Source: Desulfarculaceae bacterium (GTDB lineage Bacteria; Desulfobacterota; Desulfarculia; Desulfarculales; Desulfarculaceae). From it: a stretch of DNA of 64,000 nucleotides. The translations under genes and the position numbers were made by a program. The notes beneath the pieces are model-generated. The model had not been told where the DNA came from. It saw only the letters and a list, made by a program, of their open reading frames with translations, and made no database searches. Positions 25,042-34,974 of this stretch are shown piece after piece. The stretch spans positions 464,870-528,869 of the forward strand of contig JAHLKT010000002.1 of NCBI GenBank assembly GCA_020444545.1, read 5' to 3'. How positions within the stretch are numbered: position 1 is the first letter of the stretch; each line of letters begins with the position of its first letter.

Positions 25042-25197
25042 TAGTGGAGCCAGCTGCGGATTAAATCGGCCGGGGCCATTGACTCACAAGCGTCACTTGG
25101 GCATTTTGGAATAGAAAAGACCTATTGGGGTAGGGAAATTACGACTAGATAACTATGGTTTAAGACCCCGGTCCCGGTGAGCAAGGGAGCGCGACAG

Positions 25198-26352
25198 ATG
25201 GCGTGGAACAAAGGCAAACCCCTAAGCCGCCCGGCCTTGTTGGCGGCGCTGTTGGCCGCGGCCTTGGCCTTGGCCGGCTCGGCCGCGGTGGGGAGGGCGG
25301 ACAGCCCCCAGGCCAAGCCCATCGACGGCAAGGCGATTTATCAACAGGCCTGTCTGGCCTGTCACGGCCCGGACGGCAAGGGCGAGCCCGCCGATCGTTT
25401 GGCCTTCAAGCCCCTGCCGCCGGACTTCACCGATTGCAGCTTCGCCAGCCGCGAGGCCAACCGGGACTGGCTCATGGTGGCCCAGGAGGGCGGCCCGGGC
25501 CGGGGCTTCAACATCATTATGCCCGCCTTTGGCAACGCCCTGAGCAAAGAGCAGCTCTTGGCGGTGATCAACTACATGCGCACCTTTTGCAAGGACAAGC
25601 GCTGGCCCCGGGGCGAGCTGAACCTGCCCCGGCCCATGTTCACCACCAAGGCCTATCCCGAGGACGAGGCGGGCATCCAGGTGCTGTACAACCCCTCGAC
25701 TCCGGGCAGCGTGAAGAACAAGGTGTTCTTCGAGACCCGCATCGGCCCCCGGGGGCAGGTGGAACTCTCCTTGCCCTACGACTGGCTGCAAGTGGATGAC
25801 GCGGGCGGCGGCACCTCCTGGAACAACGGTATCGGCGACGCGGCGGTGTCCTACAAGCAGGTCGTTTACGCCAGCCTGGAAACCGGGGCCATCGTAGCCC
25901 TGGGCGGCGAGCTGATATTGCCCACCGGCGACCAGGACAAGGACCTGGGCAAGGGCACCGCGCGCTTCGAGCCCTACGTGTCCTATGGCCAGCTCCTGCC
26001 GGCACAGTTCTTTTATGAATTCCAGGGGGGAGGGGCCATTCCCCAGGACGGGGCCAAGGCCAACGAGGAAATCTTCGGGCGTTTGGCCGTGGGCCGCTGC
26101 TTCTACGCCGGGCAGTACGGCCGCCGCTGGACCCCCATGGTGGAGCTGCTGGCCTCCAAGGAGCTGGTGAGCGGCGAGGACACCCAATGGGACGTGGCCC
26201 CGCAGTTCCAGGTAACTCTCAGCGACCGGCAGCACGTGCGCCTGGGCCTGGGCGCGCGCATTCCCCTGACCCAAACCGACACCCGCGACGTGCAGTACGG
26301 CCTTTATCTGGTCTGGGACTGGTTCGACGGCGGGCTCTTCGAGGGATGGTAG
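25198..26352 (+). CDS. Monoheme cytochrome c fused to an outer-membrane beta-barrel-like domain
   Basis: A 384-residue exported protein. After a signal peptide (VGRA-D near residue 35) there is a cytochrome c domain with the single heme site CLACHGPDGKGEP near residues 51-63 and a distal MPAFG methionine near 111. From about residue 150 to the end the sequence is rich in alternating amphipathic strands with aromatic girdles (FFETRIG, LSLPYDWLQV, QFFYEFQGGG, YGLYLVWDW), as in transporter/porin barrels, and it ends with W. The start ATG 25198 follows AAGGGAGCG; a GTG at 25177 would overlap that site. The pentaheme gene follows eight bases later, so both probably act together at the outer membrane. 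Confidence 0.72.
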   Translation: MAWNKGKPLSRPALLAALLAAALALAGSAAVGRADSPQAKPIDGKAIYQQACLACHGPDGKGEPADRLAFKPLPPDFTDCSFASREANRDWLMVAQEGGPGRGFNIIMPAFGNALSKEQLLAVINYMRTFCKDKRWPRGELNLPRPMFTTKAYPEDEAGIQVLYNPSTPGSVKNKVFFETRIGPRGQVELSLPYDWLQVDDAGGGTSWNNGIGDAAVSYKQVVYASLETGAIVALGGELILPTGDQDKDLGKGTARFEPYVSYGQLLPAQFFYEFQGGGAIPQDGAKANEEIFGRLAVGRCFYAGQYGRRWTPMVELLASKELVSGEDTQWDVAPQFQVTLSDRQHVRLGLGARIPLTQTDTRDVQYGLYLVWDWFDGGLFEGW

Positions 26353-26360
26353 GTGATAGC

Positions 26361-27986
26361 ATGAAATCATTAATCAGCCTATTCACCGCCGTCCTTCTCT
26401 TGTCTCTGGGTTCCGTGGCCCTGGCCCAGCCCCAGCCACCGGCTCAGATATTCGTCACCTCGGACCGCTGCGTGGCCTGTCACAACGGGCTAAGGACCGC
26501 CGACGGCCGGGACGTGTCCATAGGTTTCGATTGGTCAGGGTCCATGATGGCCAACGCGGCCAAGGATCCCTACTGGCAGGCGGCCGTTCGCCGCGAGATC
26601 ACTGATCACCCCACCGCCTCGGCGGCCATCCAAAACGAGTGCTCGGCCTGCCACATGCCCATGAGCCGCTACACCGCCAAGATGCACGGCAACATGGGCC
26701 AGGTGTTCGCCAACCTGCCGGTGAACCTGGCCGCGCTCAACCCCGCGCCCAACGCCCTGCTGGCCTGGGACGCGGTGTCGTGCAGCATGTGCCACCAGAT
26801 CACCCCGGCCAAACTGGGCACCCCGGCCAGCTTCACCGCCGGCTTCGTGGTGGACAACACCATGCCCCTGGGCGCGCGCCCGGCCTACGGGCCTTTCGTG
26901 GTGGACCAGGGCCGCCAGCGCATCATGAGCTCGGCCTCGCAGCTAAAGCCCACTCCGGGCGCCCAGATGAGGGACGCGGGCCTGTGCGGCTCCTGCCACA
27001 CCCTCTACACCCACGCCCTGGGCCCGGACGGCAAACCGGTGGGCCGCCTGCCCGAGCAGGTGCCTTATCTGGAGTGGGAGCACAGCGCCTATGCCAGGGA
27101 AAAGCGCACCTGCCAGAGCTGCCACATGCCCAAGGAGCCCAAGCCCATGGCCATCACCTCGGTCATGGGGGTGATGCGCCAGCCCTTCAGCCGCCATTCC
27201 TTCAGGGGCGGCAACTTCTTCATGCTGGGCCTGCTCCAGCAGAACGCCCAGCCCCTGGGCGTCACCGCCCGGCCCCAGGACCTGGCCGCCTCGGTGGGGC
27301 GCACCAAAAAGCACCTGGAGACGCTCTCGGCCAAGGTCGAGCTGGTGGAGGCCAGGGTGCGCGGCGGCAAGCTGGAGGCCAAGGTGCGCCTAACCAACTT
27401 GGCCGGGCACAAGCTGCCCACGGCATACCCTTCGCGCCGGGCCTGGCTCTGGTTCCGGGTCACTGACGCCCAGGGCCGCGAGGTGTTCTCCTCCGGGGCC
27501 CCGCGCCCGGACGGCTCCATCGCGGGCAATGACAACGACCAGAACGCCCGGGCTTACGAGCCCCACTACCAGAGCATCACCCGGCCGGACCAGGTGCAAA
27601 TATACGAGGCCATCATGGCCGATACCATGGGCCAGGTGACCACCGGCCTGATCAAGGCGGTGCGCTACATCAAGGACACCCGCCTGTTGCCCCGGGGCTT
27701 CGACAAGGCCACGGCCCAAAACGACATCGCGGTGCAGGGCCCGGCCCGCCAGGACCCGGACTTCGCGGCCGGCGGCGACGTGGTGAGCTACGTGGCGCCG
27801 GTGGACCCGGCCCAGGGGCCTTTCAAGGTGAGCGTGGAGCTGTGGTATCAGCCCATCGGCTTCCGCTGGGCCCAGAACCTGGGCCTGGTGAACTCCGCGG
27901 AGAGCAAGCGCTTCCTGGGCTATTACAACGCCGCCGCCAAAAGCTCGGCCCTGCGCCTGGCCGCGGACAACGCCAGCGCCCGCTGA
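26361..27986 (+). CDS. Pentaheme c-type cytochrome
   Basis: A 541-residue exported protein with a signal peptide (SVALA-Q near residue 23) and five CXXCH motifs: CVACH, CSACH, CSMCH, CGSCH and CQSCH, all in the first 270 residues. The C-terminal half (from about 300) has beta-sandwich character (AKVELVEARVRGGKLEAKV followed by TNLAGHKLPTAYPSRR) and a HKLPT segment typical of the C-terminal domain in large multiheme cytochromes of deltaproteobacteria. The start is ATG 26361, just after the stop of the barrel fusion and with AGGTGAT upstream. It is probably the periplasmic or surface partner of that protein. A strong terminator follows. Confidence 0.85.
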   Translation: MKSLISLFTAVLLLSLGSVALAQPQPPAQIFVTSDRCVACHNGLRTADGRDVSIGFDWSGSMMANAAKDPYWQAAVRREITDHPTASAAIQNECSACHMPMSRYTAKMHGNMGQVFANLPVNLAALNPAPNALLAWDAVSCSMCHQITPAKLGTPASFTAGFVVDNTMPLGARPAYGPFVVDQGRQRIMSSASQLKPTPGAQMRDAGLCGSCHTLYTHALGPDGKPVGRLPEQVPYLEWEHSAYAREKRTCQSCHMPKEPKPMAITSVMGVMRQPFSRHSFRGGNFFMLGLLQQNAQPLGVTARPQDLAASVGRTKKHLETLSAKVELVEARVRGGKLEAKVRLTNLAGHKLPTAYPSRRAWLWFRVTDAQGREVFSSGAPRPDGSIAGNDNDQNARAYEPHYQSITRPDQVQIYEAIMADTMGQVTTGLIKAVRYIKDTRLLPRGFDKATAQNDIAVQGPARQDPDFAAGGDVVSYVAPVDPAQGPFKVSVELWYQPIGFRWAQNLGLVNSAESKRFLGYYNAAAKSSALRLAADNASAR

Positions 27987-28152: not shown

Positions 28153-29646
28153 ATGAAATGGCGAGTGACCTGCCTGTTGGCCCTTTGCGCCTTTTTGTTC
28201 GTGGCCCTGGCGGCCCCCCTGGCCCATGCCGAGGGCACGGTGGACCTGGGCATCATCACCGTCAAGCAAAAGGATTTGGCCGACAACCTGCGCGCCCAGC
28301 TTCTCAAGGGCGCCAGCTTCGAGAGCCTGGCCAAAGCCAACTCCGTGGGCCCCGCCTCCTTCCGGGGCGGCCGTTTGGGCAAGGTGCCCAACACCCGGCT
28401 GCGCACCGAGTTCCGCGCCGCGCTCAAGGACCTGCCGCCCGAAAAGCCCAGCAAGGTCATTCCCACCGAAGAGGGTTACACCATCCTCATGCGCTTTGAC
28501 CAGGCAGACGCCTCGGCCGAGGCATCCCCCCGGGCGGTGCCCAACATGGACAAGTCCCAGGATTCGGCCTTCCGCTTCAGCAGCAAGGCCCCCAGCATGG
28601 ACGCCAAGCCGGAAACCCGCCCCGTTCCCGGTCCCCGATCCGGCCAGGCGGCCCAGGCTCCGGAGCCGCGGACCCTGCAAGGCCACGAGGCATCCTACCT
28701 GATCGCCCGGCGGCACGTGCTGGCGGGCATCGAGGCGCTAATCGGCGGTCAGCTCAAGCTGGCCGAGCAGAGCTTTTCCCGCGCCCTGGGCGAAAACCCC
28801 CGCGAAGACAGCGCCCAGTTCCTTTTGGAAATGACCCAGCAGGCGCGGGCGGGCAAGGTAAAGCCGGCCGCGGTGAAGCTGTTTGCCGAAGGCTTTGAGG
28901 CCGTGACTCAGGGTGATGGCAACAAGGCCCTGGAATTCTTTATGAAGTGCAAGAAGAGCGACCCCAACTTCTGGCAGGGCGACCTCTTCGCGGCCAACAT
29001 GCTGGCCGGCGCGGGCAAGATGGGCGAGGCCAAGGAAATCATTGAAAAGCAGGTGCTTGCCCGCAACCCGCGCTCCTACCGGGCCTACGTGACTCTGGGG
29101 CTCATGGCGGCGGACAGCAAAAAGCCCAACGAGGCCCGCCAGTACCTGGAAAAGGCCATCTCCATCAACCCGGATTTCGCCCAGGCCCACTACCAGTTGG
29201 GCATGGTGGCCCTGTACAGCCAAGACCTCAAGCTGGCCGAGACCCAGTTCAAGCGCACCATCACTCTGGACCCCTACAACGACCAGGGCTACAACAACCT
29301 GGGCCTGATCTACGCCTTTAAGCGCCAAGCCGCCGAGGCGGAGAAGATGTACAAGAAGGCCCTGGCCCTGAACCCCAACTATCCGGACGCCCACGTGAAC
29401 CTGGGCAACCTCTACGCCAGCCAGGGCAAGCTGAACCAGGCCATCGACGAGTATGTCAAGGCCTTGACCATCGATTCCAACTTCGCTCCGGCCTTCGGCA
29501 ACATGGCCGCCGCCTATGCCCTGAAAAAGGACTGGCCCGAGGCCATCAAGGCCGCGGACCGCGCCCTGGAGCTGGGCCAGCGGGTGCCCCAGTCCCTGCT
29601 GAACGTGCTGGCCCCTCACCGCGAGGCCGCCAAAAAGAAGAAGTAG
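28153..29646 (+). CDS. Exported parvulin-like/TPR protein
   Basis: A 497-residue exported protein with a signal peptide (APLAHA-E near 25). Residues about 30-115 resemble a parvulin-type rotamase domain: LLKGASFESLAKANSVGP, FRGGRLGKVPNTRL and EEGYTILMRFD follow the order of PpiC domains, though shortened at the start. A proline-rich linker (120-175) is followed by TPR repeats from about 190 to 490, with clear units such as INPDFAQAHYQLGMVALYSQ and LNPNYPDAHVNLGNLYASQG. Such proteins accompany multiheme cytochrome genes in deltaproteobacteria and may chaperone their folding or assembly; that role is inference. It has its own promoter. Confidence 0.78.
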   Translation: MKWRVTCLLALCAFLFVALAAPLAHAEGTVDLGIITVKQKDLADNLRAQLLKGASFESLAKANSVGPASFRGGRLGKVPNTRLRTEFRAALKDLPPEKPSKVIPTEEGYTILMRFDQADASAEASPRAVPNMDKSQDSAFRFSSKAPSMDAKPETRPVPGPRSGQAAQAPEPRTLQGHEASYLIARRHVLAGIEALIGGQLKLAEQSFSRALGENPREDSAQFLLEMTQQARAGKVKPAAVKLFAEGFEAVTQGDGNKALEFFMKCKKSDPNFWQGDLFAANMLAGAGKMGEAKEIIEKQVLARNPRSYRAYVTLGLMAADSKKPNEARQYLEKAISINPDFAQAHYQLGMVALYSQDLKLAETQFKRTITLDPYNDQGYNNLGLIYAFKRQAAEAEKMYKKALALNPNYPDAHVNLGNLYASQGKLNQAIDEYVKALTIDSNFAPAFGNMAAAYALKKDWPEAIKAADRALELGQRVPQSLLNVLAPHREAAKKKK

Positions 29647-32326: not shown

Positions 32327-34009
32327 ATGTTCTTTCAACTCAGCTTACTGATCGCCTTGGTATTATGCGTCGCCGGGTTGGCCTACAAGGTTTGGACCTG
32401 GCTCAGCGTTTCCGTTTCCGCCACCGAGAAGGAGGCCGGCTACTCACCCGGCCAACGCGCCTCGGCCGTGCTGGGCGGGCTGGTCCGCGCGGTGTTCAGC
32501 CGCAAGATATGGGCCATGCTGAGAGCCTTGATCCTGGACGGCCTGTTGCAGGCGCGCTCCCTCAAGCACAGCGTCCTGGCCTGGGCGGCCCACATCCTGG
32601 TTTTCAGCGGCTTCACCGGCCTTTTGCTATTGCACGCCTTGGGCACCCAGATCACCGACAATTTGTTCCGCAACTATTACCCAACCGTGGACCCATGGTT
32701 GTGGCTGCGCGACGCAATGGGCGTCATGGTCATGGTGGGGGTGTGCATCATCATTGCCCGCCGCATCTTGGTGCCCGGGCTGCGCATGACCACCCAGCGC
32801 GCCGACCGGCTGGCCATCATTCTTTTGGCCGTGATCATGCTCTCGGGCTTCGGGTTGCAGGCGGTGAAAATCACCTCGGCCCATGAATACCAGCGCATGG
32901 TCGAGGAATACTCCATGGTGGAGTCGCCGGAGGAAAAGCTGGCCCTGCGCTCGGTGTGGGCGGCGGATTACGGCGTGGTCTTCCCGGCCGGGCAGACCAG
33001 CACCGAGCCCGAGGTCCTGGAGTTGGGCCGCGAGCTCAACCAGGACTCCTGTGTTGAGTGCCACGCCCCGGCGCAGCACGCCTTCGCTTCCTACGGCCTT
33101 TCGCGCATCATCGCACCCGTGGCCCTGGCCCTGGACCGGGCCAACATGCCCCAGATCCTTTACTACATCCACTTCCTGGCCTGCTTCCTGGGCCTGGCCA
33201 TTCTGCCCTTCACCAAATTCCTGCACATGCTCACCGCTCCGCTGCTGATGGGTTTCAACGCGGTGGTGGGCCGGGCGGAAATGGACCCGGCGGCCAAGGC
33301 CTTCTACCGGGCCCTGGAGCTGGACGCCTGCACCCACTGCGGCACCTGCTCGGTGCATTGCTCGGTGGCCCCGGCGGTGCGCGTAATACCCAACCAGACC
33401 ATCCTGCCTTCGGAGAAGCTGGCCGCCCTGGGCGGATTGGTTCGCGCCTCCAACGGCAACGGGCCCGACCCGGCCACGGTGCGCCAGGGCGCCTACGTGT
33501 GCACCGACTGCGGTCGCTGCACCCGCCTGTGCCCGGTGGGCATAAACCTGCGGGATCTCTGGGCCGCGCTCAAGGAGGACCTGGAGTGCAAGGGCCTGGG
33601 CAAGCCCCTGCCCGAAATGGCCTCCGCCGCCTGGCAGGCTGCCGAGGATAGCCGCCAACAGGCCCAGGTTAAGGTGGACACCCGCGCCCTGCGCAAGACC
33701 CTGGGCTACTCGGCCCAGGGAGCCAACTTCTCGGAGTGCTACTCCTGTAAGACCTGCACCAACGCCTGCCCCCTGGTGTTCCGCAGCGAGCACCCGGCCG
33801 ACGAGCTGGACCTGTTGCCCCATCAGGTGATCTTTAGCGTGGCCGTGGGCATGAAGGAAGAGGCCATGGGCTCGCGCATGGTGTGGAACTGTCTCACCTG
33901 CTATCAGTGCCAGGAGGCTTGCCCCAACCTGGTGCCCATCACCGACATCTTCTATGAACTGCGCAACATGGCCGCCAAAGAGGCCCGTGAGAGAGAGGCC
34001 GGAGCATGA
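32327..34009 (+). CDS. Membrane heterodisulfide-reductase-like protein (cytochrome b plus Fe-S domains)
   Basis: A 560-residue respiratory protein. The N-terminal 310 residues form a NarI/HdrE-like cytochrome b domain with about five helices; between the fourth and fifth a loop carries CVECHAP, a heme c site that would face the periplasm. The C-terminal half carries four Fe-S motifs: CTHCGTCSVHC, CTDCGRCTRLCP, CYSCKTCTNACP and CLTCYQCQEACP. The first pair fits a 2[4Fe-4S] ferredoxin domain and the second pair the HdrC type. It would exchange electrons between membrane quinone and the HdrB encoded next, with which it overlaps by four bases (ATGA). The substrate is unknown. Confidence 0.82.
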   Translation: MFFQLSLLIALVLCVAGLAYKVWTWLSVSVSATEKEAGYSPGQRASAVLGGLVRAVFSRKIWAMLRALILDGLLQARSLKHSVLAWAAHILVFSGFTGLLLLHALGTQITDNLFRNYYPTVDPWLWLRDAMGVMVMVGVCIIIARRILVPGLRMTTQRADRLAIILLAVIMLSGFGLQAVKITSAHEYQRMVEEYSMVESPEEKLALRSVWAADYGVVFPAGQTSTEPEVLELGRELNQDSCVECHAPAQHAFASYGLSRIIAPVALALDRANMPQILYYIHFLACFLGLAILPFTKFLHMLTAPLLMGFNAVVGRAEMDPAAKAFYRALELDACTHCGTCSVHCSVAPAVRVIPNQTILPSEKLAALGGLVRASNGNGPDPATVRQGAYVCTDCGRCTRLCPVGINLRDLWAALKEDLECKGLGKPLPEMASAAWQAAEDSRQQAQVKVDTRALRKTLGYSAQGANFSECYSCKTCTNACPLVFRSEHPADELDLLPHQVIFSVAVGMKEEAMGSRMVWNCLTCYQCQEACPNLVPITDIFYELRNMAAKEAREREAGA

Positions 34010-34974
34010 GCAGCTACGCCCTTTTCGTGGGATGCCAGATACCCGAGTGCGCCCCCCAGTATGAGACCAGCGCCCGCAAGGTGCTCAAGGCGCTGAACTT
34101 CGAGGTGACGGACCTGGAGTTCAACTGTTGCGGCTACCCCATGCGCGACACCAGCTTCGAGTCCTTCCTGGTGGCCTCGGCCCGCAACCTGGCCCTGGCC
34201 GAGTCCCAAGGCAAGAACCTCATGGTCCTGTGCAAATGCTGCCTGGGCACTCTCAAGGCGGCCCAGAACTTCCTGGCCCAGCACCAGAACCTGCGCGCCC
34301 TGGTCAACGACATCCTGGGGCGCGAGGGCCTGGTCTACAGCGGCTCGGCCCAGGTGAAGCACCTGCAAAGCGTGCTGCACGATGACCTGGGCGTGGAGAA
34401 GATCGCCGATCAGGTGGAGCGGCCCTTCAGCGGGCTCAAGGTGGCGGCCTTCTATGGCTGCCACGCCCTCAGGCCCAGCCGGGTCACCAACTTCGACAAC
34501 CCATACGAGCCGCACCTCATCGACGACCTGCTCAAGGCCGTGGGCATCGAGAGCGTGCCCTGGGAGGGCCGCATCAAGTGCTGCGGCGCGCCCCTGCGCG
34601 ACAAGAACCCCGAGCTGTCCCTGGAGACGGTGCAAAAGCGCATCGCCGAGAGCAGCAAGGCCGAAGCCCAGGTCTTGGGCGTGGACTGCCCCCACACCTT
34701 CAAGCAGATCCAATGGGCCTTCGAGACCCTGGGAGGGGAGGGCATGGGCAGCCTGCGGGGCATCGCCGTGTATCCCCAGCTCCTGGGCCTGGCCCTGGGC
34801 CTGGACCCCAAAGCCCTGGGCCTGGACGACAACCGCCCCCGCTCGGGCTGCGTGGCCAACTTCCTGGCCGCCGAGCATCCCATCGAGCCCAAGGAGGAGC
34901 CCAAGCCCAAGGCCAAGGCAAAGCCCAAGGCCAAGAAGGAAGATGGCGGCGAAAAGGCCAAAGACGCGGTTTAG
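34006..34974 (+). CDS. HdrB-like protein with two CCG domains
   Basis: A 322-residue cytoplasmic HdrB-like protein, the catalytic type of subunit that carries non-cubane Fe-S clusters. The first CCG domain is complete: VGCQIPE, FNCCGYP and VLCKCC. The second has YGCHALRP and IKCCGAP, but the final CXXC is changed to DCPHTF, so one cluster ligand is missing. A lysine/proline-rich tail (from about residue 290) follows the domain and has low complexity. It is translationally coupled to the membrane Hdr-like gene. The pair resembles HdrBC/TmcB/DsrK-type modules; which disulfide or thiol it acts on cannot be told. Confidence 0.82.
   Translation: MSSYALFVGCQIPECAPQYETSARKVLKALNFEVTDLEFNCCGYPMRDTSFESFLVASARNLALAESQGKNLMVLCKCCLGTLKAAQNFLAQHQNLRALVNDILGREGLVYSGSAQVKHLQSVLHDDLGVEKIADQVERPFSGLKVAAFYGCHALRPSRVTNFDNPYEPHLIDDLLKAVGIESVPWEGRIKCCGAPLRDKNPELSLETVQKRIAESSKAEAQVLGVDCPHTFKQIQWAFETLGGEGMGSLRGIAVYPQLLGLALGLDPKALGLDDNRPRSGCVANFLAAEHPIEPKEEPKPKAKAKPKAKKEDGGEKAKDAV

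Follow-up and report, generated by a model that had tools for sequence, protein, structure and literature searches.

Two adjoining genes on the forward strand of the DNA analysed here, a stretch of 64,000 nucleotides from a Desulfarculaceae bacterium (the window), probably encode an inner-membrane electron conduit between periplasmic c-type cytochromes and a cytoplasmic HdrB, as judged from their sequences. The first gene (32327..34009, +) encodes a 560-aa fusion of a membrane cytochrome b, a putative heme c site in a loop between helices, and an Fe-S half with an HdrC-like end. The second (34006..34974, +) encodes an HdrB-like protein of 322 aa. Sulfate reducers have to bring periplasmic electrons, which may stem from H2, formate, partner cells or minerals, to sulfite reduction and bifurcation in the cytoplasm, and to the open question of how they do so the answers so far have been the multi-subunit Tmc, Hmc and Dsr complexes. 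A module of two genes (three with HdrA) in which a single chain forms the wire across the membrane would be of a size that lends itself to expression and measurement.

Domain order and conserved residues of the fusion protein

The open reading frame was confirmed from an ATG at 32327 to 34009, with an in-frame TTG two codons upstream. Homologues have a methionine at or near the same start as the window ATG, in a comparison for which each homologue was trimmed by script to its nearest Met. Pfam stretches are counted here from the TTG and therefore run two ahead of the residue numbers, which are counted from the ATG. The NarI-type cytochrome b domain Nitrate_red_gam (PF02665; 37.1 bits, cut-off 22.9) has its best stretch at 97-196, followed by Fer4_8 at 333-408 and Fer4_10 at 469-535; a CCG domain is absent among the Pfam matches of the 560-aa chain. 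The first Fe-S module (33317..33544, +), seen in the Fer4_8 match and the conserved cysteines, holds two [4Fe-4S] motifs (Cys335/338/341/345 and Cys392/395/398/402). The second, HdrC-like module (33716..33985, +) holds two more (Cys471/474/477/481 and Cys522/525/528/532) and is delimited by NCBIfam, HdrC structures and again the conserved cysteines. Here, residues 466-555 correspond to positions 13-95 of the QmoC model (NCBIfam), the HdrC model matches too, and the tail resembles HdrC as solved within HdrABC complexes (E 3e-18). As expected of an HdrC, it carries two [4Fe-4S] motifs of the HdrC kind and has HdrB encoded next to it.

The initial annotation had described a cytochrome b followed by four Fe-S motifs, the reverse of the order in QmoC, and both parts of this description hold. 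PF02665, Fer4_8 and an HdrC/QmoC-like dicluster follow each other in that order. Indeed, in a search of the QmoC model against the organism's own genome the model matched the gene in separate pieces, positions 222-320 first and 13-96 last, i.e. swapped, so that the claim of a reversed order is right. Scores against whole families were low: the QmoC equivalog NF038018 gave 73.6 bits (cut-off 300) and the HdrC equivalog TIGR03290 66.4 bits (cut-off 160), both below their cut-offs, and the TmcC and HmcE models stayed far under theirs (26.6 against 240 and 18.4 against 275 bits).

Are the residues that could carry hemes and clusters kept in relatives? From 91 matching ORFs (at least 300 aa, E up to 1e-80) we obtained an alignment of 56 distinct sequences, whose rows are the homologues with DNA taken; the other profile matches listed stand outside it. 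At the place of the candidate heme c attachment motif CVECH (residues 242-246; 33050..33064, +) all 56 homologues have CxxCH, and the loss of the motif that would have spoken against the initial annotation was not seen. A second CxxCH in L018, L030, L032, L054, L060 and L052 (the last a second fetch of L030) lies inside a [4Fe-4S] motif and was not counted. His89 (32591..32593, +) and His103 (32633..32635, +) in the second hydrophobic segment are kept in 55 of 55 rows, with one gap in the 56, and His282 (33170..33172, +) and His300 (33224..33226, +) in the fifth segment in 56 of 56. These four candidate ligands would make up two heme b pairs. Met191 (32897..32899, +) is likewise invariant (56/56) and could serve as the second axial ligand of heme c; Trp211 is invariant as well (56/56). 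Fifteen of the 16 cluster cysteines are kept in all 56 rows and Cys398 in 53. An AlphaFold model of the chain, computed from a four-row alignment of the window protein and three named relatives, had a mean pLDDT of 37.9 and was too poor for use.

With the whole CxxCH, histidine included, kept throughout the alignment, with its position on the predicted outer side (see below), and with two cytochrome c assembly proteins (PF01578) encoded in the genome, we consider it very unlikely that CVECH forms a disulfide or binds a metal in the loop instead of attaching heme. In favour of such a role, there is only one motif, and among solved chains none had its best match (E up to 0.001) within profile positions 1-300. 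Zinc binding or a disulfide was ranked low among the candidates considered.

Sidedness of the loop and comparison with other NarI-type cytochromes b

The window protein has five hydrophobic peaks, centred at residues 10, 92, 140, 171 and 286. CVECH had been placed between helices, and indeed it falls within the 91-residue loop between the fourth and fifth hydrophobic segments (residues 183-273; 32873..33145, +), which is predicted outside from hydropathy and charge. Only the fifth segment separates this loop from the Fe-S half. Since CVECH precedes it and the Fe-S half follows it, the two must lie on opposite sides if this segment spans the membrane.

Which of the two sides is the outer one was approached by the density of Lys+Arg, counted between segment borders that were set by hand. 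Pooled inner segments were denser than outer segments in all 56 sequences (means 0.155 and 0.073), and this excess persisted with stricter borders. Compared singly with the loop, segment 26-81 was denser in 54 of 54 sequences and segment 148-159 in 55 of 56, whereas segment 298-322, just past the last helix, was denser in only 21 of 56. The charge argument is thus uneven, as 298-322 gives no support. When hydropathy is averaged over the family, a weaker sixth peak appears near 61-65 (maximum 1.52; at most 1.3 in the window protein); it would alter the orientation of the N-terminus, but leave the loop and the Fe-S half on opposite sides. Most likely, then, the CVECH loop is outside and the Fe-S half cytoplasmic, by this prediction. 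The check for the motif's side consequently went in favour of the initial annotation, a cytoplasmic placement not being favoured, and the protein is predicted to have what defines a c-type cytochrome, a CxxCH within a segment exported to the periplasm.

Is such a loop motif a common feature of NarI-type cytochromes b? The genome gave seven PF02665 matches, two in the window gene, one in a paralogue and four in other proteins. By eye, two of these four resemble DsrM and TmcC/HmcE, with an Fe-S protein next downstream in both cases, and the remaining two have seven and six CxxCH before the cytochrome b (G000:C1:638616-639284, L125, and C4:389033-389623, L124, respectively); frames near the latter two resemble, again by eye, a CCG Fe-S protein and a FAD oxidoreductase. 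Together with nine proteins picked among the weaker cytochrome-b-only matches listed, these four served as 13 controls. In none of the 13 other NarI-type cytochromes b compared does the loop that joins the fourth segment to the fifth contain a CxxCH. Their N-termini carry six to eleven CxxCH in ten cases and none in two, and the last, L134, is truncated by the end of its contig and shows one motif right at the edge. The putative loop heme motif thus marks the family among the proteins compared, and the N-terminal multiheme c parts in 10 of the 13 controls indicate that a link to c hemes on the outside is common in the NarI-type group.

This comparison bears on a different view of the protein, namely as a mainly menaquinone-linked enzyme (a quinol:disulfide oxidoreductase of the HdrED/DsrMK type) without a periplasmic cytochrome partner, in which heme c would be an accessory, tuning or storing electrons close to the outer quinone site. 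NarI-type cytochrome b subunits usually handle quinones, and a NarI-type cytochrome b with four conserved histidines, along with the lack of a standout cytochrome cluster among the neighbour clusters listed, agrees with such an enzyme. However, a 91-residue loop with the heme motif in 56 of 56 sequences is much for an accessory, and the outside multiheme c domains in 10 of the 13 other NarI-type cytochromes b compared argue in the same direction. We therefore regard a primarily quinone-linked enzyme as unlikely, if less so than a loop without heme.

The HdrB neighbour, HdrA and a Desulfarculaceae clade

The ATG of the HdrB gene overlaps the stop of the 560-aa gene (ATGA). Its product has two CCG stretches by Pfam and matches the solved HdrB 5odc_B (E 3.9e-45), with 186.6 bits against TIGR03288, under the cut-off of 345.15. 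In the second CCG motif, a threonine, Thr231 (34696..34698, +), takes the place of the last cysteine, as found by comparison of HdrBs, and this may reflect a changed or absent second HdrB cluster. Thr231 and the score below the HdrB equivalog cut-off count against the conduit.

We compared 43 loci, made up of the window region, L045, L047 and 40 chosen stretches. HdrB follows downstream on the same strand at 42 of them, and at the 43rd the contig stops 224 bases on, with the start of HdrB visible. The gene overlap and this constant neighbourhood bear out the link to a cytoplasmic HdrB that the initial annotation had drawn. HdrA comes directly after HdrB at 16 of the 43 loci. Five of the 43 (L083, L089, L094, L099 and L110) had under 2 kb of contig left past the gene. 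Elsewhere within about 7 kb, HdrA was found at L091, L098, L099 and L102, with a weak match (90.6 bits) at L080. The HdrA of L111 has flavin and Fer4 domains and scored 876 bits against NF040770, under the cut-off of 1100. With HdrB at 42 of 43 loci and HdrA next at 16, the protein looks like a membrane-anchored, heme-c-bearing HdrC, and the family, on the basis of gene order and similarity, looks like a membrane-anchored HdrABC, of which the window's clade is without an adjacent HdrA.

Further genes follow at some loci: MvhD-type genes at L095, L097, L100 and L104 and molybdopterin-oxidoreductase genes at L103, L108 and L109, with one of each kind checked by Pfam. The label FrhB for a neighbour was dropped, as Pfam identified only an Fe-S protein. 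Of the 20 HdrA frames listed, 16 open straight after a TGA whose position is conserved, and among the 16 HdrAs adjacent to HdrB this holds for 13; loci with such a TGA include L111, L107, L106, L101 and L103. This fits selenocysteine at that position, and selenocysteine has been reported for HdrA of Desulfobacterium autotrophicum (PMC2702500).

Around the window gene, HdrA was not found in the 19 kb searched. Together with the lack of a cytochrome cluster standing out among the neighbours listed, this counts against the conduit. It also raises the question whether the protein is simply a membrane-anchored HdrC for an HdrA encoded elsewhere, so that HdrABC with bifurcation would operate in the window organism, too. 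The adjacency of HdrA at 16 of 43 loci and the HdrC-like tail are in line with this. To weigh it, the distribution on the tree of the 43 loci has to be considered. The presence of HdrA is scattered (9 changes for HdrA next, 6 for no HdrA) and does not form one clean clade, so that only one clade of nine rows, with support 100/99 and including the window gene and its paralogue, serves as an argument. All nine rows are Desulfarculaceae, and three more Desulfarculaceae rows (L080, L082 and L084) fall outside. Within the clade, none of the nine loci has an adjacent HdrA, and the last cysteine of the second CCG motif of HdrB is Ser or Thr in all nine, as against Cys in 33 of 33 others. The exchange of Cys for Ser/Thr combined with the lack of an adjacent HdrA suggests a changed function, and we give the dependence on a distant HdrA only a small chance. 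Deviations at the first CCG motif occur as well: in the HdrB of L110, outside the clade, Gly replaces a cysteine of this motif, and the HdrBs of L102, L105, L090 and L091 deviate around its first cysteine.

The paralogue (G000:C3:239029-240684; L002, L075) lies within the window organism and shares 51% identity. Downstream of it come HdrB and then genes for two 2-oxoacid:ferredoxin oxidoreductase subunits, which may represent an electron partner in the cytoplasm.

Proposed electron path and related systems

For the conduit, we infer the following path, from heme attachment, ligands and histidine pairing to the partner cytochrome and the disulfide substrate. A single heme c, attached to CVECH in the loop facing outward and perhaps ligated on its second side by Met191, would swap electrons with periplasmic c-type cytochromes. 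Electrons would cross the membrane via two b hemes, the outer one held by His103/His282 and the inner one by His89/His300, and then pass down the four [4Fe-4S] clusters of the cytoplasmic tail to HdrB, whose CCG clusters might have a carrier with a disulfide or persulfide, such as DsrC, as their substrate. A carrier of the DsrC type is plausible because the genome encodes DsrA (582.5 bits, cut-off 392.85). Electrons could run in either direction. In other genomes, the same kind of protein would replace HdrC in an HdrABC set, and the flavin-bearing HdrA could there couple the wire to ferredoxin or formate, at some loci together with the MvhD-type or molybdopterin-oxidoreductase genes.

We speculate further, and far more tentatively than for the conduit itself, that the family as a whole is a membrane-anchored HdrABC whose single-heme loop would wire periplasmic cytochromes directly to flavin-based bifurcation or confurcation without a need for quinone. 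The Desulfarculaceae branch would then have lost HdrA and turned the second cluster of HdrB into a different site (Cys to Ser/Thr), possibly becoming a stand-alone cytochrome c:disulfide oxidoreductase. This wider scenario is rather doubtful at present.

How does the window pair compare with known systems? TmcABCD, HmcA-F and DsrMKJOP span the membrane with periplasmic c hemes, a NarI-type cytochrome b and an HdrD-like cytoplasmic protein. Their c hemes are in separate subunits, whereas the window protein would have one in the cytochrome b loop; by analogy, the wire would work like Tmc, Hmc or DsrMK with the outside heme built into the cytochrome b. QmoC likewise joins an HdrC-like Fe-S part to a membrane cytochrome b, and the window protein differs from it by the reversed order, two more [4Fe-4S] motifs, the heme c loop and the HdrB partner. 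HdrED of methanogens combines a membrane part with HdrC- and HdrB-like domains, HdrD being a fusion of HdrC to HdrB; in the window, HdrB is instead a separate gene. HdrABC of methanogens (5odc and others) has an HdrB and an HdrC homologous to the window's HdrB and HdrC-like tail, but its HdrC is a small chain of 183-191 aa without cytochrome b or heme c.

Closer in architecture is HdrF of D. autotrophicum, in which a membrane part is joined with HdrC/HdrB domains (PMC2702500), so that joining as such is not new. In HdrF2 and HdrF3 the membrane, HdrC and HdrB parts are in one chain, in contrast to the separate HdrB gene here, and the portion of the description available to us makes no mention of heme c (PMC2702500). 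A possibly similar complex was described for HotSeep-1 (AMM42179.1-AMM42180.1), consisting of HdrA and a protein to which the authors ascribe hemes c and a CCG domain, and proposed there to carry electrons from cytochromes c to DsrC or perhaps ferredoxin (PMC10553843, PLoS Biol 2023). By that description, the CCG domain is in the heme protein in HotSeep-1, while it is in the separate HdrB in the window. Apart from the HotSeep-1 remark, we found no description of a loop-heme protein in the literature examined, and an earlier account in a review is possible. Although its relatives share the design, it seems to be a variation on electron-transfer complexes that are already known.

The genome comprises 4,377,656 bases on 11 contigs, and among named relatives the closest one found, with 88% identity for the 560-aa protein, is a Desulfarculaceae MAG. 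Despite the presence of DsrA, a profile search found no QmoC over the family cut-off in the genome, and we considered whether the window protein stands in for it. The HdrC-like part of the QmoC model gave several weaker matches there. Of 395 genomes sampled from the phylum, 49 have a match to the family profile (E up to 1e-60); a scan of viral contigs gave no relative and a plasmid search no match.

Upstream in the window, three further frames were noted. The frame at 25177-26352 joins a cytochrome c domain and a Phenol_MetA_deg match, perhaps an outer-membrane barrel, in one chain, and that at 28153-29646 fuses a TPR array to a Rotamase (PPIC-type) domain. The third, at 26187-27986, about 4 kb upstream on the same strand, encodes a multiheme cytochrome with an MtrC/MtrF-like domain (35.5 bits, cut-off 30), and a similar order of frames is present at L045.
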